Shown in pieces: positions 27,195 to 39,766 of a stretch of DNA of 39,766 nucleotides. The notes below the pieces were generated by a model. The model was given only the letters and a program-made list of their open reading frames with translations, was not told the origin of the DNA and ran no database searches. How positions within the stretch are numbered: position 1 is the first letter of the stretch; every line of letters begins with the position of its first letter. Source of the stretch: Thermodesulfobacteriota bacterium (GTDB taxonomy: Bacteria > Thermosulfidibacterota > Thermosulfidibacteria > Thermosulfidibacterales > B14-G1); contig JAJSAC010000028.1 of the NCBI GenBank assembly GCA_024274915.1, forward strand, positions 1 to 39,766, read 5' to 3'. Made by a program: the position numbers and the translations under genes.

Positions 27195-28640
27195 CTAGAA
27201 GGTGAACCAGGCAAAAGAACTGTAAGAAGCAGAAAGAAGCCCCCCGGGAATAATGCCCAGTTGGAAAATACCCACCACTATCACCAAAAGGGCGAAAACA
27301 GCAGCAGGATGGAAGACAATCTGGTACTCCTCCTTGGGCTCCTCCATGTACATCATGTAGACCACCCTGAGATAGTAATAAGCCGCCACGGCGCTGTTGA
27401 TGACGGCGATGACCACCAAGGGGATTTGGTTAGCCTTCACACCCGAGGCAAATACGTAGAACTTCCCCATAAACCCCGCAGTGCCCGGGATACCCGCTAA
27501 AGAGAAGAGGCAGATGGCCATTGCTGCCGCCAAAACAGGCCTCTTGGCCGCCAGCCCGGCGTAGTCGGATATGTTCACATAGCCCTCCCCTTGACGTCCC
27601 ACCAAAGCCACTACACCAAAGGCCCCCAGGTTCATAAGAGAATAAGCCAGCATATAGAAGACCACAGCAGCTCCACCCTGTCGGGAAGCTGCAGCCACAC
27701 CCACCAAAGCATAACCGGCATGGGCAATGCTGGAGTAGGCCAACATCCTCTTAATATTCTCCTGGCGCAAGGCGGCAAAGTTCCCTATCACCATAGAAAG
27801 GACGGAGACCACGGTAACCATGGCCATCCAATGACTCCTCAATGGGAAGACCGCCGAATCCAGAAAACGTAGGAGAACGGCAAAGACGGCTACTTTAGCA
27901 GCGGTGGCCATAAAACCAGCCACGGGAGCAGGGGCGCCACCATAGACATCTGGAGCCCATGCGTGGAAGGGAGCTGCCGATATCTTGAAGAAAAAGCCCA
28001 CCATCACCAAGCTCATGCCCAGGATAAGGGTGGACGAAGCCCCATGGGCAACCACATAACTGGCCACCCCACGGAGGTAAAGGGTGTCCGTCACACTGTA
28101 GATGAAGGCAAGCCCCAGGAGAAGAATAGAAGAAGAGAAGCCTCCCAAGAAAAGATACTTGAGGGCCGCCTCGTTGCAAAGGTCCCTCTGGCGAACAAAG
28201 CCCGCCAGGGCATACAGGGCTATGGAGAGAACCTCCAAGCCCACAAAGAAGAGGATGAGATGCTGGGCGGAGGTCATGAAGATGAGGCCCACCACGGCGA
28301 AAAGGACCAAGGCATAATACTCACCCAGATTCCTCCCCTCGTGGTGGAGGTATCCAGGAGAAAAGAGAAAGGTGAGGGCGGCTATAAGGAGATAAATCAA
28401 AGTGGTCAGCACAGAGAGTTTATCTGTGATAAAGGTCTGGGTGAAGGTTAGGCTCCCCTTACCCCAGAGCCCCAAGGCGAACCAAGCTGCCAGGGCAATA
28501 CCCGCCACTCCCAGATAGCCATAGTGGCTCTCCCTTTCCCTGGGGCTAAAGACATCCACAAAAAGCACCACCACAGCTGTCACCGTGAGGACTACAACAG
28601 GCAATAGGGGCCTTATACTGATATCAATCCCACCTGTCAT
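27195..28640 (-). CDS. nuoN: NADH-quinone oxidoreductase subunit N
   Basis: A 481-residue antiporter-like membrane subunit of complex I with about 14 helices, part of the proton-pumping arm. Family features are GLEVLSIALYALAGF with the key Glu of helix 5, the FFFKISAAPFHAWAPDVYGG loop with the Lys of helix 7, and KRMLAYSSIAHAGYALVG. It is the last gene of the operon, starting 4 bp after nuoM, and is followed by the terminator. Nothing is unusual in length or motifs. Confidence 0.95.
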   Translation of the reverse strand: MTGGIDISIRPLLPVVVLTVTAVVVLFVDVFSPRERESHYGYLGVAGIALAAWFALGLWGKGSLTFTQTFITDKLSVLTTLIYLLIAALTFLFSPGYLHHEGRNLGEYYALVLFAVVGLIFMTSAQHLILFFVGLEVLSIALYALAGFVRQRDLCNEAALKYLFLGGFSSSILLLGLAFIYSVTDTLYLRGVASYVVAHGASSTLILGMSLVMVGFFFKISAAPFHAWAPDVYGGAPAPVAGFMATAAKVAVFAVLLRFLDSAVFPLRSHWMAMVTVVSVLSMVIGNFAALRQENIKRMLAYSSIAHAGYALVGVAAASRQGGAAVVFYMLAYSLMNLGAFGVVALVGRQGEGYVNISDYAGLAAKRPVLAAAMAICLFSLAGIPGTAGFMGKFYVFASGVKANQIPLVVIAVINSAVAAYYYLRVVYMMYMEEPKEEYQIVFHPAAVFALLVIVVGIFQLGIIPGGLLSASYSSFAWFTF

Positions 28641-28644
28641 GATC

Positions 28645-30219
28645 TCACCTCAACTCCTTATTTTCCACAATAAAGGCCGCCATAGATACCCTTTCCTTTC
28701 CCTGGGGAGAAAACTCCTTCTGGGCAGACACCCTCCCCTTCACCTGGGAGATGAAGTTCAGCACTGAAGGCTCCATCCTCTCCAGAACAGGCTTGGGATA
28801 AAGTCCTATCCAGAACATAGGAATAACCACCATGAGCATGATCATGAACTCCCTAAAAGAGAGATCCTTGAGCTCCTTGTTAGCCTCCACTGTCACCTCG
28901 TGGAAGAAAACTCTCTTGTACATCCAGAGCATGTAGGCAGCAGACAGGACAGTGGCTGTAGTACCCAGTACGGCAAAGACGGGATAGGTCTTGAAGGCAC
29001 CCACCAGAGAAAGAAACTCACCAATAAACCCGTTAAGTCCAGGCAGACCTATGGAGGAAAAGGTGGCGATCATGAAGAAGGTGGCAAAGATGGGCATCAC
29101 CTTGGCGATACCGCCGAACTCTTTGATGAGCCTGGTGTGTCTCCTGTCGTATATCATACCCACCAGAAGGAACAGCGCACCCGTAGATAGGCCGTGATTT
29201 ATCATTTGAAGGACCCCACCCGAGACGCTTTGAAGATTCAGGGCAAAGAGTCCCAACATCACGGTACCCAAATGGCTCACCGAAGAGTAGGCCACCAGTT
29301 TTTTCACGTCGTCCTGAACCATGGCCACTAAAGCACCGTAGATGATGCTGATGACTGCCAGGGTGAGAAAGAGATAGCTGAAGTGGAGGGTGGCCGTGGG
29401 GAAAAAGGGCATACAGAAACGGAGAAAGCCGTAGGTCCCCATCTTCAGGAGGACGCCCGCCAGGATAACAGAGCCCGCAGTGGGGGCCTCCACGTGGGCG
29501 TCAGGCAACCACGTGTGGAAGGGCCACATGGGCACTTTGATGGCAAAGGCCAGGGCAAAAGCCAGAAAGAGCCAGGGAGCCACCGACGCCGCCACAGGAG
29601 TGGAAAGGAGACTGGCCAAGTTAAAGGTGAGATCTCCTGCCACCTTGTAGTGGTGATAGTAAAGGTAGATGATGGAGACAAGCATGAGCACGGAACCCGC
29701 CATGGTATAAAGGAAGAACTTGATGGCGGCATAAACCCTCCTAGGACCTCCCCACACCCCGATGAGGAGATACATGGGCACCAGCATGGCCTCCCAGAAG
29801 AGATAGAAGAGAAGGAGATCAAGGGAGCAGAAAACGCCCACCATCGTGGTCTCCAACAACAAGAAAGAGATCATATACTCCTTCACATGTTTATCTATAG
29901 TCCAAGAAGCCAGGATAGAGAGCATGGTGAGGAAGGTAGTTAGAAGCACTAAAAAGAGGGTAATTCCGTCTATGCCCAAATGGTAATAAGACCCCAAGAT
30001 CTTTATCCAGGATATCTTCTCCACAAACTGAAAATGATGAGTACCCAGCTGGAATTTAAAGTAGAGTGGCAGAGAGAGGAGGAACTCCACCACCGTGGTG
30101 ACAAAGGCCGTCCATCGCAGAACTCTTTTGCTCCCCTTGTCCACAAAGAGGAGAATCAGAACCCCTACCAGGGGAAAGAACGTGACCACGGTCAAAATAG
30201 GGAAACCCAAACCACCCAT
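28645..30219 (-). CDS. nuoM: NADH-quinone oxidoreductase subunit M
   Basis: A 524-residue antiporter-like subunit of the complex I membrane arm. Its helix 5 Glu is in [14 protein letters not shown], and the helix 7 Lys and the amphipathic turn are in [33 protein letters not shown] and [18 protein letters not shown] are typical of the family. The C-terminal tail ([18 protein letters not shown]) is charged and a little longer than usual. It lies between nuoL and nuoN as in most bacteria. Confidence 0.95.
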
Positions 30220-30234
30220 CTCTCCACTCCTTTA

Positions 30235-32112
30235 CTAGAATAGTCTCCCGATCCAGTAGATCACCACGGCCCCAACTAATATCATCCAGGCATAGTCGGG
30301 TATGAAACCCGTCTGGATATATCGGAGCCCCCCGCCCACCAGCCGGCAGAGCCTTCCCACGCCATTGACAGCCCCATCAATGATGATCACGTCCACAAAC
30401 TTCCACAGCGCGTATCTGGAGCCCCCAACCACAGGATTGACTATGAAGGCAAAGTAGATCTCGTCCACGTAGTATTTATTGTAAAGCAGGGTGTATACGG
30501 GTCTGAAATTCCTGGCCATGGCTACAGGGTCAGGCATACGCTTCATGTACATGAAGTAAGCCAGGACAACGCCCGCCACCCCCATAGCCACAGAGATAAC
30601 CATAAGTATGTAAGTGAGACCCCCTTCGTGGCCAGCAGCTTCGTGGGCCTCACCCAGAGTCCTGTTAAGGAATCCCACAATACCGCCATGGGGAGCCAGG
30701 GCCAGAAGTCCCACCACTGCCGATCCCACAGCTAACACTATAAGGGGAATGGTCATTACAGGGGGCGACTCGTGGGCGTGGTCGTAGAGGTGTTTCTCCC
30801 TGGGTTCTCCAAAGAAGGTGAGGAAGATGAGCCGGAACATATAAAAGGCTGTGAGGAAAGCGGTAAACGTGCCCACAGCCCAGATGATCCTATGCCCTCC
30901 CATGAAAGCCCCAGCCAGGATTTCATCCTTGGACCAGAAACCAGCCAAGGGGGGAATACCCGCTATGGCCAAAGCACCCACCACAAAGGTCCACCCCGTG
31001 ATGGGCATCTTCTTGATGAGCCCTCCCATCTTCTGTAAGTTCAACTCACCATGGAGGGCATGCATGACGGAACCCGCCGTGAGGAACATGAGGCCCTTGA
31101 AAAAGGCATGGGTAAAGAGATGGAAAATACCCGCCGCATAAACACCCACACCTACACCTACAAACATGTAACCCAGCTGACTCACCGTAGAGTAGGCCAA
31201 TATCCTTTTCAAATCGTTGTTCACCAAAGCCATAGTGGCAGCCATAAGGGCCGTGGCTGCCCCGATGGAGGCCACCACCTCCATGGAAAGGGGAGCCATA
31301 TTGAAAAGGGCATGAGTCCTTGCCACCATGTAGACACCCGCTGTCACCATGGTAGCAGCGTGGATGAGGGAGCTGACAGGGGTGGGACCCTCCATGGCAT
31401 CAGGTAACCACACATAGAGGGGAATCTGGGCCGATTTACCGGTGGCCCCGGTAAAGAGGAGTAATGTGATGAGGGTAGCCACTCCTACGCTCAATTGTTC
31501 GGCGCTGGCGAAGGCCTGGGAGAAGAGGAGGGTTCCCAAGTGTTTGTAGATCAAGAAGAGGCCAATCATGAAACCAAAATCACCAATCCTGTTTACCACG
31601 AAGGCCTTCATGCCGGCATTGGCAGCACTGGCCTTCTCGTACCAGTAACCAATGAGTAGATAAGAGCAGAGGCCCACTCCTTCCCAGCCCACAAACATGA
31701 GGAGGAAGTTGTTAGCCAGACACAGAGTGAGCATGAAGAAGACGAAAAGGTTGAGATAGCAAAAGTACTTGGCATATCCCCTAGGGGTTTCGTGGTCCAT
31801 ATAACCTATGGAGTAGACGTGAATCCAGGTAGCAACAAAAGTGACAGTAGTTATCATAATGGCCGAGAGCTCATCCAAGAGAAAGCCAATGGGAACCCGA
31901 AAATCCCCTAGAGGAATCCACCAATAAAGCACCTGATCAAATCGCTCACCTTGCAATACCCTAGCCAACAAAATGAGGGAAACGATGGCCGGTATAGCAA
32001 TAGCTGGAACAGCAATGATGTGAGCCTTCCTCTTGGTAAACCAACAGAAAAGACCATTTATAGTGGCTCCCAGAAGGGGGATAAGGACTACGGCTAAAAT
32101 TAACACCATCAT
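30235..32112 (-). CDS. nuoL: NADH-quinone oxidoreductase subunit L
   Basis: A 625-residue distal antiporter-like subunit of complex I. Its motifs are GWEGVGLCSYLLIGYWYEK (helix 5 Glu), GATGKSAQIPLYVWLPDAME (helix 7 Lys), SLIHAATMVTAGVYM and KRILAYSTVSQLGYM. The C-terminal region holds the long lateral helix and the last helix (PDYAWMILVGAVVIYWIG). It starts ATGATG with GAGAGGAG ahead and lies 13 bp after nuoK. Length is normal. Confidence 0.96.
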   Translation of the reverse strand: MMVLILAVVLIPLLGATINGLFCWFTKRKAHIIAVPAIAIPAIVSLILLARVLQGERFDQVLYWWIPLGDFRVPIGFLLDELSAIMITTVTFVATWIHVYSIGYMDHETPRGYAKYFCYLNLFVFFMLTLCLANNFLLMFVGWEGVGLCSYLLIGYWYEKASAANAGMKAFVVNRIGDFGFMIGLFLIYKHLGTLLFSQAFASAEQLSVGVATLITLLLFTGATGKSAQIPLYVWLPDAMEGPTPVSSLIHAATMVTAGVYMVARTHALFNMAPLSMEVVASIGAATALMAATMALVNNDLKRILAYSTVSQLGYMFVGVGVGVYAAGIFHLFTHAFFKGLMFLTAGSVMHALHGELNLQKMGGLIKKMPITGWTFVVGALAIAGIPPLAGFWSKDEILAGAFMGGHRIIWAVGTFTAFLTAFYMFRLIFLTFFGEPREKHLYDHAHESPPVMTIPLIVLAVGSAVVGLLALAPHGGIVGFLNRTLGEAHEAAGHEGGLTYILMVISVAMGVAGVVLAYFMYMKRMPDPVAMARNFRPVYTLLYNKYYVDEIYFAFIVNPVVGGSRYALWKFVDVIIIDGAVNGVGRLCRLVGGGLRYIQTGFIPDYAWMILVGAVVIYWIGRLF

Positions 32113-32125
32113 GGGTCTTCTCCTC

Positions 32126-32431
32126 TCACCACTTCATTAGGTCTGCCCTATCCACACCAATGCCCCCCCTACTTCTGTAGAAGGAGGTGATGATGGCCAT
32201 ACCTATAGCCGCCTCGGCAGCTGCCACGGCCATAACAAAAAGGACTATGACCTGCCCCTCCACGGAGCCTTTGCTCCTGGCCAGGGCCATGAAGAGAATG
32301 TTCACACCGTTGAGCATAAGCTCCATGCAGAGAAACATGATAATGGCATTCCTCCTGATCATGAGACCCAGAGCCCCCAAGAGGAAGACCAACACACTAA
32401 GAACCGTGTATTGAAAGAGTCCCACACCCAC
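32126..32431 (-). CDS. nuoK: NADH-quinone oxidoreductase subunit K
   Basis: A 101-residue small subunit with three helices. IMFLCMELMLNGVNILF carries the conserved Glu in helix 2, and the later AAEAAIGMAIITSFYR carries the second Glu. It helps link the quinone site to the pumping subunits. GTG at 32431 is behind AGGGGAGAAAG. A second GTG two codons later is possible. It sits 12 bp after nuoJ. Confidence 0.95.
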   Translation of the reverse strand: MGVGLFQYTVLSVLVFLLGALGLMIRRNAIIMFLCMELMLNGVNILFMALARSKGSVEGQVIVLFVMAVAAAEAAIGMAIITSFYRSRGGIGVDRADLMKW

Positions 32432-32443
32432 CTTTCTCCCCTC

Positions 32444-32947
32444 CTACAGCTTCTTCTTGGCCAGGGCCACAGCTCCCAAAGCCGCCACAAAAATGAGAAC
32501 GGAGACCAATTCGAAGGCCAGAATGTACCGAGTAAATATGAAATGGGAGAGAGCCTTCACCCCAAAGCCCCCGGCCCCAGGGGAAAGAACCCCCCTCCAC
32601 TCACCCGCCAGAATAAAGATCTGAAAGGCGAAGAGAGCGGCCGCCCCCAAACCCAACAAAAGCCTCCAAGGGACCGCCCTTTCCTGATACTCTCCCTTGC
32701 TCAAGTTCATGAGCATTATGACAAAGAGGAAGAAGACCATTATGGCCCCGGCATAGACGATGATCTGGACCATAGCTATAAAAGGGGCCCCCATAAGGGA
32801 AAGATAGAGTATGGCCGTCACACAGAGGTTGGCCAGGAGGGAGAGGGCCGAGTAAACAGGATGTCTGATAAAGACCACCCCCAAGGCCGACAAGAGAATC
32901 AGCCCGGCCAGAAAGAAAAAGACCACGTCCCAGGCATTGATCATCAT
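32444..32947 (-). CDS. nuoJ: NADH-quinone oxidoreductase subunit J
   Basis: A 167-residue membrane subunit with five helices. NuoJ features are VVFIRHPVYSALSLLANLCVTAILYLSL and VQIIVYAGAIMVFFLFVIMLMNL, containing the flexible pi-bulge helix region that couples quinone chemistry to pumping. It starts right after nuoI, the two genes being separated by only 2 bp. Confidence 0.95.
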   Translation of the reverse strand: MMINAWDVVFFFLAGLILLSALGVVFIRHPVYSALSLLANLCVTAILYLSLMGAPFIAMVQIIVYAGAIMVFFLFVIMLMNLSKGEYQERAVPWRLLLGLGAAALFAFQIFILAGEWRGVLSPGAGGFGVKALSHFIFTRYILAFELVSVLIFVAALGAVALAKKKL

Positions 32948-32949
32948 GG

Positions 32950-33381
32950 CTACTCTCCACCTCTTTTCTCAAAAAGCCAGTTCTTATCCTTGTATAGATG
33001 GCCCCTGCCAGGGCCAGGTACCGTAAGCTCGTAGTCCGTGGTCATGATTATGGCTCCCCTGGGACATGCATCCACGCAATAACCGCAGAAGATGCACCTG
33101 GAATAGTCTATCTCATAGACCTCGGCTATCTTCCCCACATCTGATCTCTTGAACTCGGGGTCTTCAGCACCGTAAAGGGTGATAGCCCCAGCAGGGCACA
33201 CAGCCTCACAGAGGCCACAGGCACAACACTTCTCTCTCCCGTCTTCGTCCAGTTTGAGGACGTGACGCCCCCGGTATCTTTCAGCCACAGGTCTCTTTTC
33301 ATAGGGATACTTGACGGTTATCGCAGGTTTAAAGAGATGGCCAAAGGTGACCCTTAGACCCTTAAGTAGTGGCCCAACCAT
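32950..33381 (-). CDS. nuoI: NADH-quinone oxidoreductase subunit I (two 4Fe-4S clusters)
   Basis: A 143-residue ferredoxin-like subunit carrying clusters N6a and N6b, which pass electrons from NuoG to NuoB. Both CxxCxxCxxxCP motifs are intact: C52, C55, C58, C62 and C96, C99, C102, C106. The N-terminal amphipathic helix (LLKGLRVTFGHLFKP) docks it on NuoH. It lies 3 bp after nuoH. No residues are missing. Confidence 0.96.
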   Translation of the reverse strand: MVGPLLKGLRVTFGHLFKPAITVKYPYEKRPVAERYRGRHVLKLDEDGREKCCACGLCEAVCPAGAITLYGAEDPEFKRSDVGKIAEVYEIDYSRCIFCGYCVDACPRGAIIMTTDYELTVPGPGRGHLYKDKNWLFEKRGGE

Positions 33382-33384
33382 GGC

Positions 33385-34389
33385 TTAAATCCCCCCAAAA
33401 AGGATCATCACTCCACCCGTGGCCAGGATGTTCACAAGGGCCAGGGGCAAGAGGTACTTCCAAGAAAAGACCATGAGCTGATCATAACGAAACCTAGGAT
33501 AAGTCCAGCGGAGCCAGAGGAGGAAGAAGAAGACGGCAACGAGCTTTACAACAAACCAGATGGGACCCGGTATCCAGGAGAGAAAGGAGACAGGGCTGTA
33601 CCATCCACCCAAGAACAGGCATACGGCCACCGCCGAGGTGACCGTCATGTTGGCATACTCCCCCAGGAAGAACATGGCAAACTTCATGGAGCTGTATTCA
33701 GTATGGTATCCACCCACCAACTCCGACTCAGCCTCGGGCAGGTCAAAGGGAAGACGGTTCAGCTCAGCAGTGGCAGCGATCATATAAATGATGAAGGCCA
33801 AGGGCTGATAAACCACCATCCACATGCTCTTTTGGTAGTGAACGATATCCACCAGGCTGAAGGAGCCCACCACCATGATGACTCCCATAATGGAGAGACC
33901 CAGGATAAGCTCATAACTGATAAACTGAGCGGCAGATCTCAGCCCCCCCAGAAGGGGATACTTGGAGTTGGAAGACCACCCGCCAAATACGATGGCATAA
34001 ACAGAGAAGGAAGAAACGGCCAATAGATACAAGAGGGCCACGTTGATATCGGTGACCACCAGGTCGATCTTCCTGCCGAAGAGGGTGATACTCTCCCCGA
34101 AAGGGATAACCCCAATGGCCAGGATCGCTGGAACAATGGCTATCATGGGGGCCAGATAGTAGAGAATCTTGTCTGACTCCGCAGCTACAATATCCTCTTT
34201 GAAAAAGAGCTTGAGACCGTCAGCTAGAGGCTGTAGTAGACCATGAGGCCCACAGTGATAAGGACCCAACCTATCCTGGATGTGTCCAGACACCTTCCTC
34301 TCCGCCAGCGTGCCGTAGGCCACAAAGAGCATGAGGACCGCAAAGAGAATCAACAGCTTTACTGCCACTACAATAATGGCCACTATCAT
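33385..34389 (-). CDS. nuoH: NADH-quinone oxidoreductase subunit H
   Basis: A 334-residue membrane subunit with eight helices that forms much of the quinone chamber. Typical segments are QDRLGPYHCGPHGLLQPLAD, LKLFFKED and NRLPFDLPEAESELVGGYH, which holds the conserved acidic loop. It lies between nuoG and nuoI with a 3-bp gap to each. The length is normal. Confidence 0.96.
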   Translation of the reverse strand: MIVAIIVVAVKLLILFAVLMLFVAYGTLAERKVSGHIQDRLGPYHCGPHGLLQPLADGLKLFFKEDIVAAESDKILYYLAPMIAIVPAILAIGVIPFGESITLFGRKIDLVVTDINVALLYLLAVSSFSVYAIVFGGWSSNSKYPLLGGLRSAAQFISYELILGLSIMGVIMVVGSFSLVDIVHYQKSMWMVVYQPLAFIIYMIAATAELNRLPFDLPEAESELVGGYHTEYSSMKFAMFFLGEYANMTVTSAVAVCLFLGGWYSPVSFLSWIPGPIWFVVKLVAVFFFLLWLRWTYPRFRYDQLMVFSWKYLLPLALVNILATGGVMILFGGI

Positions 34390-34392
34390 GGC

Positions 34393-36687
34393 TCACTCCT
34401 TGGCAGCTCTCAGTTCTATCCCCCTATACCAAAGGCCCTTCAGCGCTCTGGTGATGGGGAAGTCAGAGAAGCCCCTAGAGACTATGGCCCCTCCCCTGGG
34501 CACCTCATCCCTGAAGAAGAGCTTCATACGGAACTGATTTCCGTCCACCTCCATGATGACTATATCACCGTTCTTGAAGCCCAGCTCGTCCCCGTATTCC
34601 GGATTGAGGGTCACGTATGGCTCAGGGACAAGTTGAACAAAAGCGTTGCAGAAATCGGTTCTCATCCCTGCCCTGTAGAAGGGATACTCAAAGAGAGCGG
34701 GGATATCCCCTTTCAGGTGGGCAGCCTTTACACCACCAAGGGTGGAGGGTGCCTCCACCACCTGAGAGAGCCTTTCTCTCACCAGGGGGGTGACATCCTC
34801 TACGGTTCCAAAGTCTCCCAGAGGCCTTCCCCACTTCCTGGAGAGACCCAAAGCCACCTGCCACAGGGGCATAGATTCGTCCTTTGGCTTAAAGGCCCTG
34901 TTCCTCTTCTTGGCCTCCCAGAACATGTTAACCACGGTGCCGCCATCTTCAGCAAAGCTGGTAGCTGGGAGATAACAGTCAGAGTAGGCCACTGTCTCGG
35001 TGAAGAACATGTCGTGAACCACCAAAAAGTCCAGATTGGAGAGGGCCTCCTTCACCAAGGTACCATTGGGATAGTCCCTGAAGAGGTCCATAGAAGAGAC
35101 AAAGAGACCCTTTATCTCTCCAGAGACACACTTATTGAGGATGTCCTCAACGCTCTCCCCTCCTGGAGACCAGAAGCCCATCTGGAAGGCCCCTTTGGAG
35201 TTGCTCCCCCAGTCCAGGAAGAGAGGCGTAATCCCCAGCCTTTCGCCCACCCCCTTGAGAAGGACCCTCCCCTCAGGGGTGAGCCGGCTTCCGCCAATGA
35301 TAAGGGGTTTCTTCTCCTGCAGGCCCTGAGCCATTGCCTTCAGGGTATCCTCAGAAACTTCGGTGCCCTCCAGAAGAGACGCGTAATCTTTGCCCCCCAA
35401 GACCGACGCCAGGGCCTCTAACACTTTCTCTTCCTTTCCAGGAAGGGGATTGGCGTGTTCAGCGGCAAACTTAAAGAGGAAAGAATCGCCGGTGACTATA
35501 AGATAAAGGGATGCTCTTCCCTCCTTGCAACCCTTAGCCACGCTCAAGGCCAGGACGGGGTGGTGGACACTCAGGTCCTCTCCCACCACCAGATAGGCTT
35601 CGGCCTTCTCCACGCCTTCCAGAGAGTCTACGGCAGGCCTCTCAGGATAGGTGTTGCCCCCGTAGAGGCGGTAATCCAGATAGTCACTGCCCACCACCTC
35701 CTTCATGAAGCTACCCATGAGGAGATAGTCCTCACAAGTGAGGTGGGGGGAGACCAGAGCAGCCACTTTCCCGCCACTTTCCACCAATCCTTTCAGCCTT
35801 CCGGCCACAAACTCCAGGGCCTCATCCGTGGTGACCCCCCTCAATCTGTTGCCTTCCCTCCTGAGGGGAACAGTGATCCTCTCTGAATGGTTCACATACT
35901 CAAAACCGTACCCTCCCTTGTCACAGATCCAGGGGGAAGGATAACCCCTCCTATGGAGGACCTTCAGGAGCTGACCATCCCTTTCACCCAGGTCCAGCCA
36001 GCAACCCACCTCACAATGAGCACAGACACTGTTGGTAAAGTCCAGCTTCCAGATCCTGGTCTTATAGCGATAAATGTTGGAGGTGATGGCACCCACGGGG
36101 CACAAAGCCTCCATATTGAACGTATACTTCTGGGCAAACACGTCCCTCTCATAGGGCCCCACGATGGTCCTGTAACCCCTCTCGTAAACGCCCCAGTCTG
36201 TACCCCCCATCGCTTCGTCGCTGAACCTCACACACCGCCTGCACAGTACGCACCTGTTCATCTGATGGACTATGAGAGGACCCAGATAACGGGTGGGATA
36301 CTTGAAAGGCTCATCGTAGAGGCGCTTCCTGGGCTCCCCAAACTTGAAAACGAAGTTCTGAAGCTCACACTCCCCGGCCTCATCACAAATGGGACACTCC
36401 AAGGGGTGATTCACCAGGACGAACTCCAACAGCCACTCCCTGGCATCCTTCACCCGATCGCTGTTGGTATAAATCTCCCATCCATCCTGGACCTCTGTAA
36501 TACATGCCGGGAGAAGGCGAGGCATCCCTTCCACCTCCACCAGACACATCCTACAGATGCCCGCTGGCTTCAAATAGGGATGATAACAAAAGACCGGGAT
36601 CTCCACGCCAACCCGCTGTGCAGCGTTCAGGATGGTTGTCCCTGGGGGAACCTCGATCTCTATTCCGTCAATAACCACTTTGGGCAT
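34393..36687 (-). CDS. nuoG: NADH-quinone oxidoreductase subunit G
   Basis: A 764-residue Fe-S subunit. Ligands for the 2Fe-2S cluster N1b are C34, C45, C48, C62. N5 uses H94, C98, C101, C107. N4 uses C146, C149, C152, C196. N7 uses C222, C225, C229, C255. All are present, including the optional N7. A molybdopterin-oxidoreductase-like domain follows to about 700, without visible cofactor-binding Cys. It starts 16 bp after nuoD with no nuoE or nuoF between them, which is the reverse of the usual order (D-E-F-G), so its electron donor must be encoded elsewhere or differ. Confidence 0.95.
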   Translation of the reverse strand: MPKVVIDGIEIEVPPGTTILNAAQRVGVEIPVFCYHPYLKPAGICRMCLVEVEGMPRLLPACITEVQDGWEIYTNSDRVKDAREWLLEFVLVNHPLECPICDEAGECELQNFVFKFGEPRKRLYDEPFKYPTRYLGPLIVHQMNRCVLCRRCVRFSDEAMGGTDWGVYERGYRTIVGPYERDVFAQKYTFNMEALCPVGAITSNIYRYKTRIWKLDFTNSVCAHCEVGCWLDLGERDGQLLKVLHRRGYPSPWICDKGGYGFEYVNHSERITVPLRREGNRLRGVTTDEALEFVAGRLKGLVESGGKVAALVSPHLTCEDYLLMGSFMKEVVGSDYLDYRLYGGNTYPERPAVDSLEGVEKAEAYLVVGEDLSVHHPVLALSVAKGCKEGRASLYLIVTGDSFLFKFAAEHANPLPGKEEKVLEALASVLGGKDYASLLEGTEVSEDTLKAMAQGLQEKKPLIIGGSRLTPEGRVLLKGVGERLGITPLFLDWGSNSKGAFQMGFWSPGGESVEDILNKCVSGEIKGLFVSSMDLFRDYPNGTLVKEALSNLDFLVVHDMFFTETVAYSDCYLPATSFAEDGGTVVNMFWEAKKRNRAFKPKDESMPLWQVALGLSRKWGRPLGDFGTVEDVTPLVRERLSQVVEAPSTLGGVKAAHLKGDIPALFEYPFYRAGMRTDFCNAFVQLVPEPYVTLNPEYGDELGFKNGDIVIMEVDGNQFRMKLFFRDEVPRGGAIVSRGFSDFPITRALKGLWYRGIELRAAKE

Positions 36688-36703
36688 CTCGAAAACCTCC
36701 CCT

Positions 36704-37903
36704 TTACTTGTCTACGTCACCAAGAACAATGTCCAAGGTGCCTATAATGGCCACCAAGTCTGCCACTTTGTGTCCCCTAGAGAGCAGAGGCAAGGTCTGA
36801 AGGTTCATGAGAGAGGGAAGCCTTATTCTCAATCGGTAAGGCTTGGGACTACCGTCACACACAATGTAAAACCCCAGCTCACCCTTGGGAGCCTCTATAG
36901 ACTGATAGACCTCCCCTTTGGGAGGATGGAACCCCTCCACCACCAGCTTGAACTGATGGATGAGGGCCGCTATGTCTCTGTGTTCACCCCTCACCCAGTC
37001 GGGATCGGGGAAGTAGAGTTTGCCCTCCATGGCGTGGATGGGGCCATCGGGCAGCTTTTCCAGGGCCTGGAGGATGATGCGGCGGCTCTGGCGCATCTCC
37101 TCCATCCTCACCAAATACCTATCATAGACGTCTCCATTCCTGCCCGTCGGTATATCAAACTCAAACTCGCCGTATCCTGAGTAGGGGTAGGCCTTTCTGA
37201 TGTCCCACTCCACCCCGGAGCCCCTGAGCATGGGGCCTGTAGCCCCCAGGGCGATAGCATCCTCTCTGCTCAAAACCCCCAGGCCCTCCGTTCTCATCCT
37301 CCAGATCTTGTTCTTGGTGAGGAGGTTCTCATACTCCTGGATCTTGGAGGGCAAAATGTCCAAAAACTCCCTGAGTTTGGGGATGAATCCCTCAGGCAGA
37401 TCCCAGCGCACACCACCCACCACAAAATAACTCTGGTGCATCCTGACACCAGCAGCCATCTCCAAGAGCTCGTAAGTGATCTCCCTCTCCCGAAAGGTAT
37501 AGAGGAAGACGGTAACAGCCCCTATATCCATGGCGTGGCTTCCCAGCCATATGAGGTGACTGGCGATCCTGGCCAACTCTGCCAGGATCACCCTTATGTA
37601 CTTAGCCCTGGGAGGCACCTCTACACCTAAAAGCTTCTCCACGGCCAGGCAGTAGGCAAAGTTGTAAGCAGGGCATGCCAGGTAATCCAACCTGTCGATC
37701 AAGGGGCTCACCTGTTGGTAGGTCTTAGATTCGGCCAGCTTCTCGGTGCCCCTGTGAAGGTAACCAACAACGGGCCTGGCATCAACTATGGTCTCCCCTT
37801 CCAGCTCCAAGATCACCCTCAATACACCATGGGTACTAGGGTGTTGGGGACCCATGTTGAGGGTGTAAGTTCTCCTCTCCGTATGCTCTGCCACCGTCTT
37901 CAT
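36704..37903 (-). CDS. nuoD: NADH-quinone oxidoreductase subunit D
   Basis: A 399-residue 49-kDa-type subunit forming the quinone-binding site with NuoB. MGPQHPSTHGVLRVILELEGE and GYLHRGTEKLAE carry the conserved His residues of the quinone pocket. The C-terminus (GHKVADLVAIIGTLDIVLGDVDK) matches the family end (usually ending GEVDR). It is separate from nuoC, not fused as in E. coli. It starts 3 bp after nuoC. Confidence 0.96.
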   Translation of the reverse strand: MKTVAEHTERRTYTLNMGPQHPSTHGVLRVILELEGETIVDARPVVGYLHRGTEKLAESKTYQQVSPLIDRLDYLACPAYNFAYCLAVEKLLGVEVPPRAKYIRVILAELARIASHLIWLGSHAMDIGAVTVFLYTFREREITYELLEMAAGVRMHQSYFVVGGVRWDLPEGFIPKLREFLDILPSKIQEYENLLTKNKIWRMRTEGLGVLSREDAIALGATGPMLRGSGVEWDIRKAYPYSGYGEFEFDIPTGRNGDVYDRYLVRMEEMRQSRRIILQALEKLPDGPIHAMEGKLYFPDPDWVRGEHRDIAALIHQFKLVVEGFHPPKGEVYQSIEAPKGELGFYIVCDGSPKPYRLRIRLPSLMNLQTLPLLSRGHKVADLVAIIGTLDIVLGDVDK

Positions 37904-37906
37904 CCT

Positions 37907-38374
37907 TCACTCCTCAAAATCATAGCCTTCAGTGGGATAATCCTTTCTTAGAGGGTAACCGGGGAAGTCGTCCGCCAGATAGAGACGGGTGAGATCAGGA
38001 TGGCCCTCAAACTCAATGCCGAACATGTCGTAGGCCTCCCTTTCCATCCAATTGGCGCCGGGCCAAACACCGCAGGCCGTGGGTATCCCTTCTCCATCTT
38101 TAAGTCCCACCTTCACCCTCAACTGGGCCCTGGTGGTCATATTCCTGAGATGATAGACTACATAGAAGCGGGGCTCTTGATCCACACCCATGTCCACACC
38201 ACACAGATCCACCAGACAGTCGAAACCGAATTCCCCCTTCAGCACCTCCAGGGCCCCCGGCAGGGAAGACTTATCCAGCAACAGGGTATATTCCCCCCTG
38301 AACTCAAAGTCCTCCAGCACCGACCCTCCTAACCTCTCCTTCACTTTTTCCAGCCAGTCACCCATGGCCACCAT
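37907..38374 (-). CDS. nuoC: NADH-quinone oxidoreductase subunit C
   Basis: A 155-residue 30-kDa-type subunit of the peripheral arm. WMEREAYDMFGIEFEGHPDL and DDFPGYPLRKDYPTEG are the family signature. It is a stand-alone gene. ATG at 38374 is used, and a second ATG three codons later (MGDWLEKV) is also possible because the ribosome site is weak. It lies 8 bp after nuoB. Confidence 0.95.
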   Translation of the reverse strand: MVAMGDWLEKVKERLGGSVLEDFEFRGEYTLLLDKSSLPGALEVLKGEFGFDCLVDLCGVDMGVDQEPRFYVVYHLRNMTTRAQLRVKVGLKDGEGIPTACGVWPGANWMEREAYDMFGIEFEGHPDLTRLYLADDFPGYPLRKDYPTEGYDFEE

Positions 38375-38382
38375 CCCGCTTC

Positions 38383-38934
38383 TTATATCTTGTTGTTGAA
38401 GGATTCTTTCTCTATCTGCTTCTGGAGCATTAGAACGGCCTGAAGCAATGCCTCAGGCCTGGGAGGGCATCCTGGGACGTAATAGTCCACAGGGACGAGC
38501 TTATCCACCCCCTGAACCACGGCATAGCTCCTGTAGATCCCCCCTCCAATGGCACAGGCGCCCATGGCGATGACCCACTTGGGCTCCGGCATCTGGTCGT
38601 ACACCCGCTTGAGCACAGGAGCCATCTTCTTGGTGAGGGTACCTGCCACAATGAGGAGATCGGCCTGCCTGGGAGAAGGCCTAAAGACCTCAGCCCCGAA
38701 ACGGGCCATGTCGTAGTGAGAAGCAGCCGTGGCCATCATCTCAATAGCACAACAGGCCAATCCAAAGGTACAGGGCCAGATAGACCACTTCCTAGCCCAG
38801 TTCACCATCTTATTCAGGGTGGTCAGAAGGACCCCTCCCCTCTCCAACATCTCCAGTTCCTCAGGGGTCACCTCCTCTGGCGTGACCAGCCTGGGAATCT
38901 CAATCTCTGTTATGGGTGTCCTCTTCACTCCCAT
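38383..38934 (-). CDS. nuoB: NADH-quinone oxidoreductase subunit B
   Basis: A 183-residue subunit carrying the terminal 4Fe-4S cluster N2. Ligands are C61 and C62 ([13 protein letters not shown]), C127 (GACAIGGG) and C156 ([11 protein letters not shown]). ATG at 38934 is chosen because AAGGGGGG lies just ahead. The upstream in-frame ATG at 38955 has no ribosome site. The gene overlaps the end of nuoA by 10 bp, so the two are coupled. Confidence 0.96.
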
Positions 38935-39281
38935 TCCAGGGCCCCCCTTCCCCATACATAGATAAAGATGGCCAAGAACACGGCAATGAAGACCACCATC
39001 TCCAAAAGGCCAAATAGGCCCAACTTCTTAAAGTAGACCGCCCAAGGATAAGTGAAGACCACCTCGATATCGAAGATGAGGAAGAGCAGAGCAACCACGT
39101 AGTAATGGACGAAAAAGGGCATTCTGGCATCTCCCACAGGGTCCACACCACACTCATAGGGAGAGAGTTTTATGGGGTCGGGTTTCTTGGGACCCAGAAG
39201 GGTAGACATGAGCACCGCTACAACCCCAAAACCCACGGCCAACAGCAGGACCAATATCAGTGGCCAATACGCATCTTTCAT
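38925..39281 (-). CDS. nuoA: NADH-quinone oxidoreductase subunit A
   Basis: A 118-residue membrane subunit with three helices. [21 protein letters not shown] contains the conserved Cys loop near the quinone site, and [15 protein letters not shown] holds the acidic helix residues. ATG at 39281 has AGGAGGTGT ahead. It begins the operon, with a promoter at 39307-39336. Confidence 0.96.
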
Positions 39282-39306
39282 TGGACACCTCCTGAAACCC
39301 TCGGGC

Positions 39307-39336
39307 TACATACCACCCACATCTGAAGCCTGTCAA
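39307..39336 (-). promoter_or_regulatory. Candidate promoter of the nuo operon
   Basis: A perfect TTGACA (39336-39331) and TATGTA (39312-39307) are 18 bp apart on the minus strand, 26 bp before nuoA. An A/T-rich stretch (39340-39360) just upstream could act as an UP element. Read-through from the upstream flavoprotein gene is also possible, since no terminator is seen. Confidence 0.5.
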
Positions 39337-39422
39337 TAGAGAAAATTTGTTTTTTCACAATATCCCCCTACCTGCCCTTCAACAGCATCTCTCTTCGAAA
39401 CGGTCTTTTGGCCCCTCTCCCT

Positions 39423-39766
39423 TCATACCTCCACTTTTTCCACCTTCTTTCTCATCTCCTCTTCCTCTTCTTCCTCCACCTCTTCAGGAGGCCTATCACA
39501 GTGGAGACAACGCCTGGCCTCCTCCACAGCCTGGTCGAAGGTGAGCCCCATGTTCACCTCGACAGAGCCTTTCCGCTCCTCCAAGGGGAGAAGGTTAGGC
39601 TTGGTCTTGGTAATGGTGACCAGATAGGCATCCTCGTCATAGGTGGTCTCCACCACCTGCCTTTCAGGGAAGGGCAGCTTACCCTCATAACCAAAGTACC
39701 TGTCTATCTCCATGGCGGCTATACGACCGTGGGCCACGGCTTCCACCACCGTGGCGGGGTTGACGG
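39423..39766 (-). CDS. C-terminal part of a GltD-like FAD/NAD(P)-dependent oxidoreductase (cut by window edge)
   Basis: About 114 residues, open to the window edge. NPATVVEAVAHGRIAAMEIDRYFG is the final glycine-rich segment of the FAD domain of glutamate-synthase small-subunit-like proteins (GltD, NfnB, SfrB and related). It is followed by LTFDQAVEEARRCLHCD, common in this group, and a long acidic tail (EEVEEEEEEEMRKKVEKVEV). Such proteins, alone or fused to NuoF-like domains, feed NAD(P)H electrons into partner enzymes. Given the missing nuoE and nuoF, it may belong to the electron-input module. The N-terminus and any fusion lie outside the window. Confidence 0.75.
   Translation of the reverse strand, partial: VNPATVVEAVAHGRIAAMEIDRYFGYEGKLPFPERQVVETTYDEDAYLVTITKTKPNLLPLEERKGSVEVNMGLTFDQAVEEARRCLHCDRPPEEVEEEEEEEMRKKVEKVEV

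Follow-up and report, generated by a model that had tools for sequence, protein, structure and literature searches.

The 39,766 nucleotides analyzed here (the window) make up the entire contig C19 of a Thermodesulfobacteriota genome, G000 (2.03 Mb, 77 contigs), and encode on the minus strand a complex I with the gene order nuoA-B-C-D-G-H-I-J-K-L-M-N, preceded by the 3′ end of a GltD-like gene within which the contig ends. The subject of this analysis is the electron-input module of this complex I, namely NuoE and a fusion of NuoF with a GltD domain (NuoF-GltD) that are encoded upstream of nuoA. G000 belongs to family f1 (genomes G000-G004); two sister families within its order, f2 and f3, are represented by G005-G008. 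The features of the locus are the following:

39423..39764, minus strand: 3′ end of the NuoF-GltD fusion gene, that is, the C-terminal 113 codons with the end of GltD, the RCLHC cysteine pair and an acidic tail; the remainder is C36:1-2869
39331..39360, minus strand: promoter-like element TTGTGAA-N7-ATTTTCTCTATTGACA, 30 bases, 62 bases past the fusion stop and 49 before nuoA
38925..39281, minus strand: nuoA (NCBIfam, under the cut-off)
38383..38955, minus strand: nuoB (NCBIfam)
37907..38374, minus strand: nuoC (NCBIfam)
36704..37903, minus strand: nuoD (NCBIfam), product 73% identical to NuoD of sister family f3
34393..36687, minus strand: nuoG (NCBIfam, under the cut-off), with N1b, N5, N4 and N7 patterns
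33385..34389, minus strand: nuoH (NCBIfam)
32950..33381, minus strand: nuoI (NCBIfam)
32444..32947, minus strand: nuoJ (NCBIfam, under the cut-off)
32126..32431, minus strand: nuoK (NCBIfam)
30235..32112, minus strand: nuoL (NCBIfam)
28645..30219, minus strand: nuoM (Pfam Proton_antipo_M)
27195..28640, minus strand: nuoN (Pfam Proton_antipo_M)
C36 6456-6485, minus strand: second copy of the promoter-like element in G000, upstream of nuoE

NCBIfam profiles match NuoA, B, C, D, G, H, I, J, K and L, with NuoA, NuoG and NuoJ scoring only under the curated cut-offs, and the Pfam profile Proton_antipo_M identifies NuoM and NuoN, so that the membrane and quinone-module subunits (A, B, C, D, H, I, J, K, L, M, N) plus NuoG are all present in the window. 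The end of nuoD (36704) and the start of nuoG (36687) are separated by 16 bp, and no NuoE or NuoF is encoded in this interval. NuoG contains the ligand patterns of clusters N1b (from C34), N5 (H94), N4 (C146) and N7 (C222). The gene order, the 16-bp gap, the four ligand sets (by these patterns) and the GltD-like 3′ end with an acidic tail upstream of nuoA had been described in an earlier note on this DNA, and all hold. No RNA family reaches its gathering score in the window.

The same note described the operon as lacking nuoE and nuoF, which is correct for their usual position between nuoD and nuoG and incorrect overall: the apparent absence is due to the contig end, as both genes sit upstream, in a neighboring transcription unit on the overlapping contig C36. 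A search of the whole genome yields three NuoF matches and four matches of the NuoE family (2Fe-2S thioredoxin-like), of which C36 carries two and three, respectively, one of these three being the fusion itself. The first 141 bases of C36 are identical to the last 141 bases of the window, and reading across this overlap produces a single open reading frame (ORF) of 1023 amino acids in which the GltD end is the C-terminus. Its Pfam domains are, from N to C, a 2Fe-2S thioredoxin-like domain, the NuoF core (flavin mononucleotide (FMN)-binding and 4Fe-4S), and Fer4_20 followed by Pyr_redox_2, which together constitute GltD. Thus, the NuoF-GltD fusion that had been suspected does exist, and it lends support to the proposal, made in the same place, that electrons enter through a non-standard or relocated module. 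Upstream of the fusion on C36 are genes for a 126-amino-acid Cys-free protein, a HATPase-domain protein, a PHP protein, a 134-amino-acid protein, a second HATPase-domain protein and a 136-amino-acid protein, six small genes in all, and then nuoE. The 134- and 136-amino-acid proteins are presumably of the kind labeled DRTGG and the 126-amino-acid protein of the kind labeled HndB; none of the three has a Pfam match at 1e-5.

The arrangement recurs throughout f1. In G003 and G004, fusion frames of 1024 and 1025 amino acids, respectively, are followed by nuoA-B-C-D-G on one contig; in G004 the stretch is continuous from nuoE to nuoM, where the examined stretch ends, and in G003 the contig stops within nuoG. 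In G002, the fusion gene is split over two contigs, which extend to the same part of it, and nuoE lies at the end of a third, and the G001 contig stops at NuoF residue 345. Altogether, nuoE, the six small genes and the NuoF module are found in all five f1 genomes (split across contigs in G002), the GltD part is seen in four of the five, and the link to nuoA is unbroken in two. A chance overlap between C19 and C36 can be dismissed given that the two genomes with unbroken contigs show the same order and ORF length; moreover, within G000 the 141 bases match C19 and C36 only, aside from a short hit on the second copy of the promoter-like element.

The BfuB subunit of bifurcating enzymes is defined by InterPro domains including a ferredoxin domain (IPR017896; B3/B4), and the B2 site of the NiFe-Bfu enzyme consists of C438, C476 or Thr, H525, C531 and C536 (PMC9304861). 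Alignment to 7t2r_B (NiFe-Bfu) places C437, T475, H524, C530 and C535 of the fusion at the B2 positions. Among the aligned fusions, C437, H524, C530 and C535 are conserved in 58 of 58 rows, and they are absent from the second NuoF of C36 (NuoF_2). The cysteines of B5 (the N-terminal 2Fe-2S site) and B1 (the NuoF 4Fe-4S site) are present in the G000 fusion, and those of C1 (2Fe-2S) in NuoE. By Pfam, the fusion has no ferredoxin domain; instead, GltD (Fer4_20 and Pyr_redox_2) comes after the CPxxxC motif. The NuoF proteins of G005-G008 lack the last B2 cysteine as well as any ferredoxin or GltD tail; ending as they do before this cysteine, at 422-426 amino acids, they were possibly shortened from a HydB-type ancestor. 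An AlphaFold2 model of the G003 fusion (mean predicted local distance difference test score 89.1, predicted template modeling score 0.84) is most similar, in the first six rows of a fold comparison, to the B chains of the bifurcating Nfn-ABC, NiFe-Bfu, StnABC and Thermococcus NfnABC complexes (Z 49.8-55.5), followed by complex I NuoF (Z 46.5), the matches extending mostly over residues 5-540.

The GltD part is closest to the A subunit of the Thermococcus Nfn-Bfu and to two Nfn/Stn large subunits. The position of StnC K170 is occupied by Glu in NfnB, and the flavin adenine dinucleotide (FAD) of StnC does not bifurcate (PMC10482914); the equivalent residue of the fusion, Lys609, is present in 55 of the 58 rows, the other 3 having His. 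NADPH-type arginines are found in 55/58 and 57/58 rows. The C-terminal RCLxC pair shows almost no variation, and its counterpart in the alignment is the N-terminal RCLQC of NfnL; this correspondence suggests that the C-terminus of the fusion probably supplies two ligands of one GltD cluster. These features indicate that the new NuoF is, as judged from its sequence, of the electron-bifurcating HydB/BfuB type, with a StnC-like GltD (FAD/NADPH) domain in place of the ferredoxin-docking domain, and that the substrate of GltD is probably NADP(H). It could be argued that GltD does not feed complex I at all, being a structural remnant or exchanging electrons with another partner, e.g., ferredoxin, and no GltD domain in this location is known to us to have been measured. 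Yet, of six GltD cysteines checked, five are conserved in 58/58 rows and the sixth, C582, in 53/58, NADPH-type residues are retained in 55-58 of the 58, and in the pair of congeneric genomes G386 and G115, described below, GltD replaces the ferredoxin domain just after CPxxxC, which argues for a functional input. A non-feeding GltD accordingly appears rather improbable.

Sister families f2 and f3 retain, in four of four genomes, nuoE and an ordinary nuoF of 422-426 amino acids between nuoD and nuoG (nuoF at L113 9505-10782, L114 1776-3053, L115 10417-11694 and L116 1084-2349). Compared with sister G008, identity is 81% for NuoB, 73% for NuoD, 77% for NuoH and 75% for NuoL, and the first 230 residues of NuoG are 60-62% identical to those of the sister-family proteins (62% for G008). 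The f1 NuoE, by contrast, is 37% identical to NuoE of G008 versus 56-57% to two NuoE proteins of Aminicenantes, and the NuoF core of the fusion shares 49-51% identity with the four sister NuoF versus 75% with two Aminicenantes fusions. Because the sister families keep the ordinary genes between nuoD and nuoG, f1 appears to have replaced its ordinary complex I nuoE-nuoF rather than lost them. Simple relocation of an ordinary pair is ruled out given that the NuoF encoded upstream has GltD fused to a HydB-type core and is closer to Aminicenantes (75%) than to the sisters (49-51%).

The earlier note had treated an ordinary nuoE-nuoF pair nearby as a sign of mere rearrangement. Such a pair does exist in G000 (C36:8335-10516) and in G002, outside the nuo operon and on the strand opposite to nuoE, the small gene at the head of the pair lying about 1.6 kb from nuoE, and its NuoF lacks the B2-site residues, so this pair could be taken for the true NADH module of complex I. 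However, the NuoF immediately upstream of nuoA is of the HydB type with an NADPH domain, and the second-pair (544-amino-acid) NuoF is not found in G003 or G004, both of which keep complex I and the fusion; their two NuoF matches each are the fusion and a 614-amino-acid homolog of a protein encoded on contig C15 of G000. Furthermore, the promoter-like element is not found before the second pair, and the pair resembles proteins that come after the fusion gene in Aminicenantes hydrogenase operons. Assignment of the second pair to complex I is therefore very unlikely. The full region of this pair (G000:C36, L008 7836-10516) encodes a small Cys-free protein, NuoE and the 544-amino-acid NuoF, which is devoid of B2- and B5-site residues; the adjoining genes are presumably topA-like and dprA-like.

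NuoF-GltD fusions are present in at least 48 of 386 genomes searched, two candidates being scored per genome and low scores cut off. In the 44 loci examined outside f1, from 43 of the 44 fusion genomes (all but G317), the [FeFe]-hydrogenase subunit HydA is encoded nearby in 21 and the fusion lies within a nuo operon in 2; the others have different or unseen partners. In a tree of the fusions, built by a quick method with two truncated fusions and the sister-family NuoF left out, the four f1 fusions are sister to six from Aminicenantes, with a Shimodaira-Hasegawa-like approximate likelihood ratio (SH-aLRT) support of 87, below the 95 mark; four of these six have HydA close by, and the Bipolaricaulota fusions come next. 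A search for PF02906, the HydA H-cluster domain, produced no match in the nine genomes of the order, G000-G008 (metagenome-assembled genomes (MAGs), 71-96% complete). In our view, the module probably derives from a hydrogenase that lost its HydA and became attached to complex I.

The module and nuoA-N are also connected by the promoter-like element, one copy of which lies in the 141 bp between the fusion stop and nuoA, the second preceding nuoE. We read the end of the element as a TTGACA -35 hexamer; in both G000 copies, the TTGTGAA half-site precedes this box. In a genome-wide search of eight genomes (G000 and G002-G008) allowing up to 3 mismatches, exactly two copies were found in each of G000, G002, G003 and G004, one before nuoA and one before the nuoE module (in G004, an ORF of 222 amino acids separates the element from nuoE). 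In the sister families, the element occurs as a tandem pair before nuoA in G005 and once each in G006, where it precedes a NuoA-like reading frame, and G008; it was not found in G007, the nuo contig of which starts in nuoD. The reversed control pattern gave 0 matches in all eight genomes, and approximately 3e-8 exact matches are expected in the genome; a longer pattern with a fixed spacer matched the nuoA copy only. The shared element thus ties the module to complex I at the level of regulation.

The same observations bear on the possibility that NuoE and NuoF-GltD form an independent soluble transhydrogenase, or the remnant of a former hydrogenase, such that complex I is fed directly, by ferredoxin or another donor, via NuoG/NuoI and shares only regulation with the module. 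This interpretation is consistent with the separate promoter-like elements of the module and nuoA-N, with the frequency of HydA near fusions elsewhere as against their rarity in nuo operons, and with the presence in G000 of another complex I, of 11 subunits, without E, F and G, which indicates that EF-less complexes occur. Nevertheless, the NuoG of the window retains the N1b, N5, N4 and N7 patterns of an acceptor for a NuoF, HydA was not detected in the order, G000 has an NfnAB-like pair that might carry out transhydrogenation, the module and nuoA-N possess the only two copies of the element found, and the sister lineages encode NuoEF inside the operon. An independent complex therefore seems unlikely.

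An independent parallel is provided by the unrelated family f110, to which belong both of the other nuo-linked fusions (G115 and G251); these are placed elsewhere in the tree. Twelve f110 genomes were searched, in which the stretches with fusions end at or before nuoL. In five of these (G251, G115, G389, G394 and G390, the contig of the last starting within the plain NuoF), the fusion is located between an extra NuoE′ and NuoG′ inside the nuo operon; G393 shows E′-fusion-G′ on a short contig. In three genomes (G386, G378 and G391), the nuo operon includes a NuoF with a ferredoxin tail, and in G378 and G391 the nuoA-to-nuoM run (the stretches end at nuoM) carries a ferredoxin-type BfuB in mid-cluster; G378 has an additional fusion outside the nuo operon, and no full fusion was found in G388 and G392. 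The genomes G386 and G115, which carry the same genus label, share the layout A-B-C-D-E-F-G-E′-F′-G′-H-to-L (where the stretch ends), with NuoD 92.1% and the NuoF′ core 86.6% identical, and differ in the tail of NuoF′, which is a 2x4Fe-4S ferredoxin domain in G386 versus GltD in G115, the exchange occurring just after the CPxxxC motif. In our reading, the second electron entry has been exchanged naturally between these two genomes. In G387 (L218, L219), the NuoF-GltD gene of the nuo operon is split between two distant places of one contig, a pattern that an inversion or a misassembly within the gene would produce.

Among the described systems, the closest is Nuo-Bfu, which Schut et al. 2022 (PMC9304861) predicted as a bifurcating complex I with a ferredoxin-type BfuB. 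The f1 system resembles it in that the NADH module is exchanged for a BfuB/BfuC core, with the B1, B2, B5 and C1 residues present in the fusion and NuoE, and differs in that BfuB carries GltD instead of the 2x 4Fe-4S ferredoxin domain, that the module is encoded upstream under its own promoter-like element instead of as BfuABC midway through a nuo cluster of 14 genes, and that the second substrate is probably NADPH instead of ferredoxin (PMC9304861). In the trimeric [FeFe]-hydrogenase of Vallitalea guaymasensis L81, the two-4Fe-4S domain of HydB is likewise substituted by GltD, but this beta subunit serves a hydrogenase, whereas the f1 fusion adjoins complex I and no such hydrogenase was found (PMC6163223). 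StnABC and Nfn-Bfu share with f1 a HydBC-type core plus a GltD that has Lys in the K170 position and an RCLxC motif at its C-terminus; in Stn, however, GltD is part of a NuoG-like third subunit (StnC) and feeds via NuoG-like clusters, and StnB retains extra 4Fe-4S sites, whereas in f1 GltD is fused to NuoF (PMC10482914, PMC7483475, PMC9304861). With regard to the canonical 14-subunit complex I of f2 and f3, the other subunits have counterparts in the f1 operon, but NuoE and NuoF are closer to hydrogenase-module proteins. We recognized no report of a NuoF-GltD fusion with complex I in the accessible literature, mostly non-subscription papers. Thus, GltD-fused HydB (in hydrogenase) and Nuo-Bfu (as a prediction) are each known, and their combination in complex I appears to be new to the extent that these sources cover the field.

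Taken together, we estimate at about 70% the probability that the complex I of f1 has no NuoE and NuoF of its own and uses instead a HydC/HydB-type (BfuC/BfuB-type) module with NuoF-GltD. This estimate builds on the fusion, the ligands of the cofactor sites, the shared element and the absence of canonical nuoEF where the sisters have them; docking, wiring and coupling are inferred. The narrower claim that the module serves complex I is likely correct. Several points weigh against these conclusions. The genomes of the order are incomplete MAGs (71-96%). The G002 contigs show no exact end overlap. Low identity to the sister families extends beyond NuoE, to NuoG after residue 230 (37-45%), NuoJ (50-52%) and NuoN (48%). 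The operon nuoA-N may start its own transcript from its element, so that it may not be co-transcribed with the fusion and the module is possibly a separate soluble complex; a sigma-70 scan of 39100-39766 detected no site under the rule of the scanner. The f110 case is not identical because the fusion there has a plain NuoF and another NuoG as neighbors, and its B5 2Fe-2S site, with G/G at two positions, is incomplete. Finally, the B2 pattern does not fully set the fusions apart: the ordinary NuoF of G005-G008 end in HI-x4-CP-x-GG, with the B2 His and one Cys present, and those of G005, G007 and G008 also show the first B2 Cys.

On the best reading, the f1 system would be a variant of the predicted Nuo-Bfu complex I with NADPH, not ferredoxin, as the second electron input. 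In the proposed scheme, the module would dock on NuoG in place of NuoEF and NADH would give electrons at the FMN. NADPH would be oxidized at the FAD of GltD, with the electrons passing via two 4Fe-4S clusters to the B2 site. The merged electrons would exit via the NuoF 4Fe-4S cluster (B1/N3) to NuoG and then reach quinone. In the bifurcation models of the cited papers, electrons of the third site reach FMN via B1, and ferredoxin connects via the C-terminal domain and B2. The potentials quoted (E′ of -280 mV for NADH and -380 mV for NADPH, E0′ of -74 mV for menaquinone; PMC9304861) imply that forward flow is downhill from both NADH and NADPH. The reverse would be equally possible, with quinol and proton-motive force making NADH and NADPH together. 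Whether the two inputs are obligately coupled, by confurcation or bifurcation, we regard as slightly worse than an even bet, our confidence being lowered because the ordinary sister NuoF share part of the B2 pattern. More tentative again is the general picture of a three-substrate complex I, in which a HydB-type bifurcation center would couple NADH, NADPH and quinone in either direction, the ferredoxin and NADPH inputs being plug-in domains that are swappable even between congeners. If correct, these proposals would mean that complex I and bifurcating hydrogenases can exchange their electron-input modules and that replacing a single domain is enough to give complex I a different second substrate. 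The Nuo-Bfu idea of a ferredoxin-driven complex I is itself predicted, not measured (PMC9304861), and G386 and G115, matched by nature, would lend themselves to asking whether complexes I driven by ferredoxin and by NADPH exist.

Several other loci of the order are of related interest. A second complex I-like operon of G000 (C62, L118 7322-17555) encodes 11 subunits (nuoABCDHIJKLMN) without E, F and G, and a second NuoD-like match with 56-60% identity is present in all nine genomes (G000-G008). In a survey for a partner of the StnC type encoded elsewhere, the GltD candidates were a 1134-amino-acid protein of contig C48, which has an HdrA-like context, and the NfnAB-like pair of C77; both were set aside, and no direct StnC search was made. 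The C48 locus (L209 2906-13925) encodes HdrBC-like proteins, this 1134-amino-acid HdrA-like/GltD protein, a second HdrA-like protein, FlpD and an FrhB-like protein, the Hdr names being our assumption from domain make-up, and might represent a further bifurcating complex. Contig C15 (L010 6339-12382) encodes NuoE, a 612-amino-acid NuoF that has both B2-site residues and ferredoxin motifs, and a 236-amino-acid protein similar to the N-terminus of NuoG; the genes before this NuoE look like a 2-oxoacid:ferredoxin oxidoreductase set, and the locus as a whole resembles Por-Bfu.

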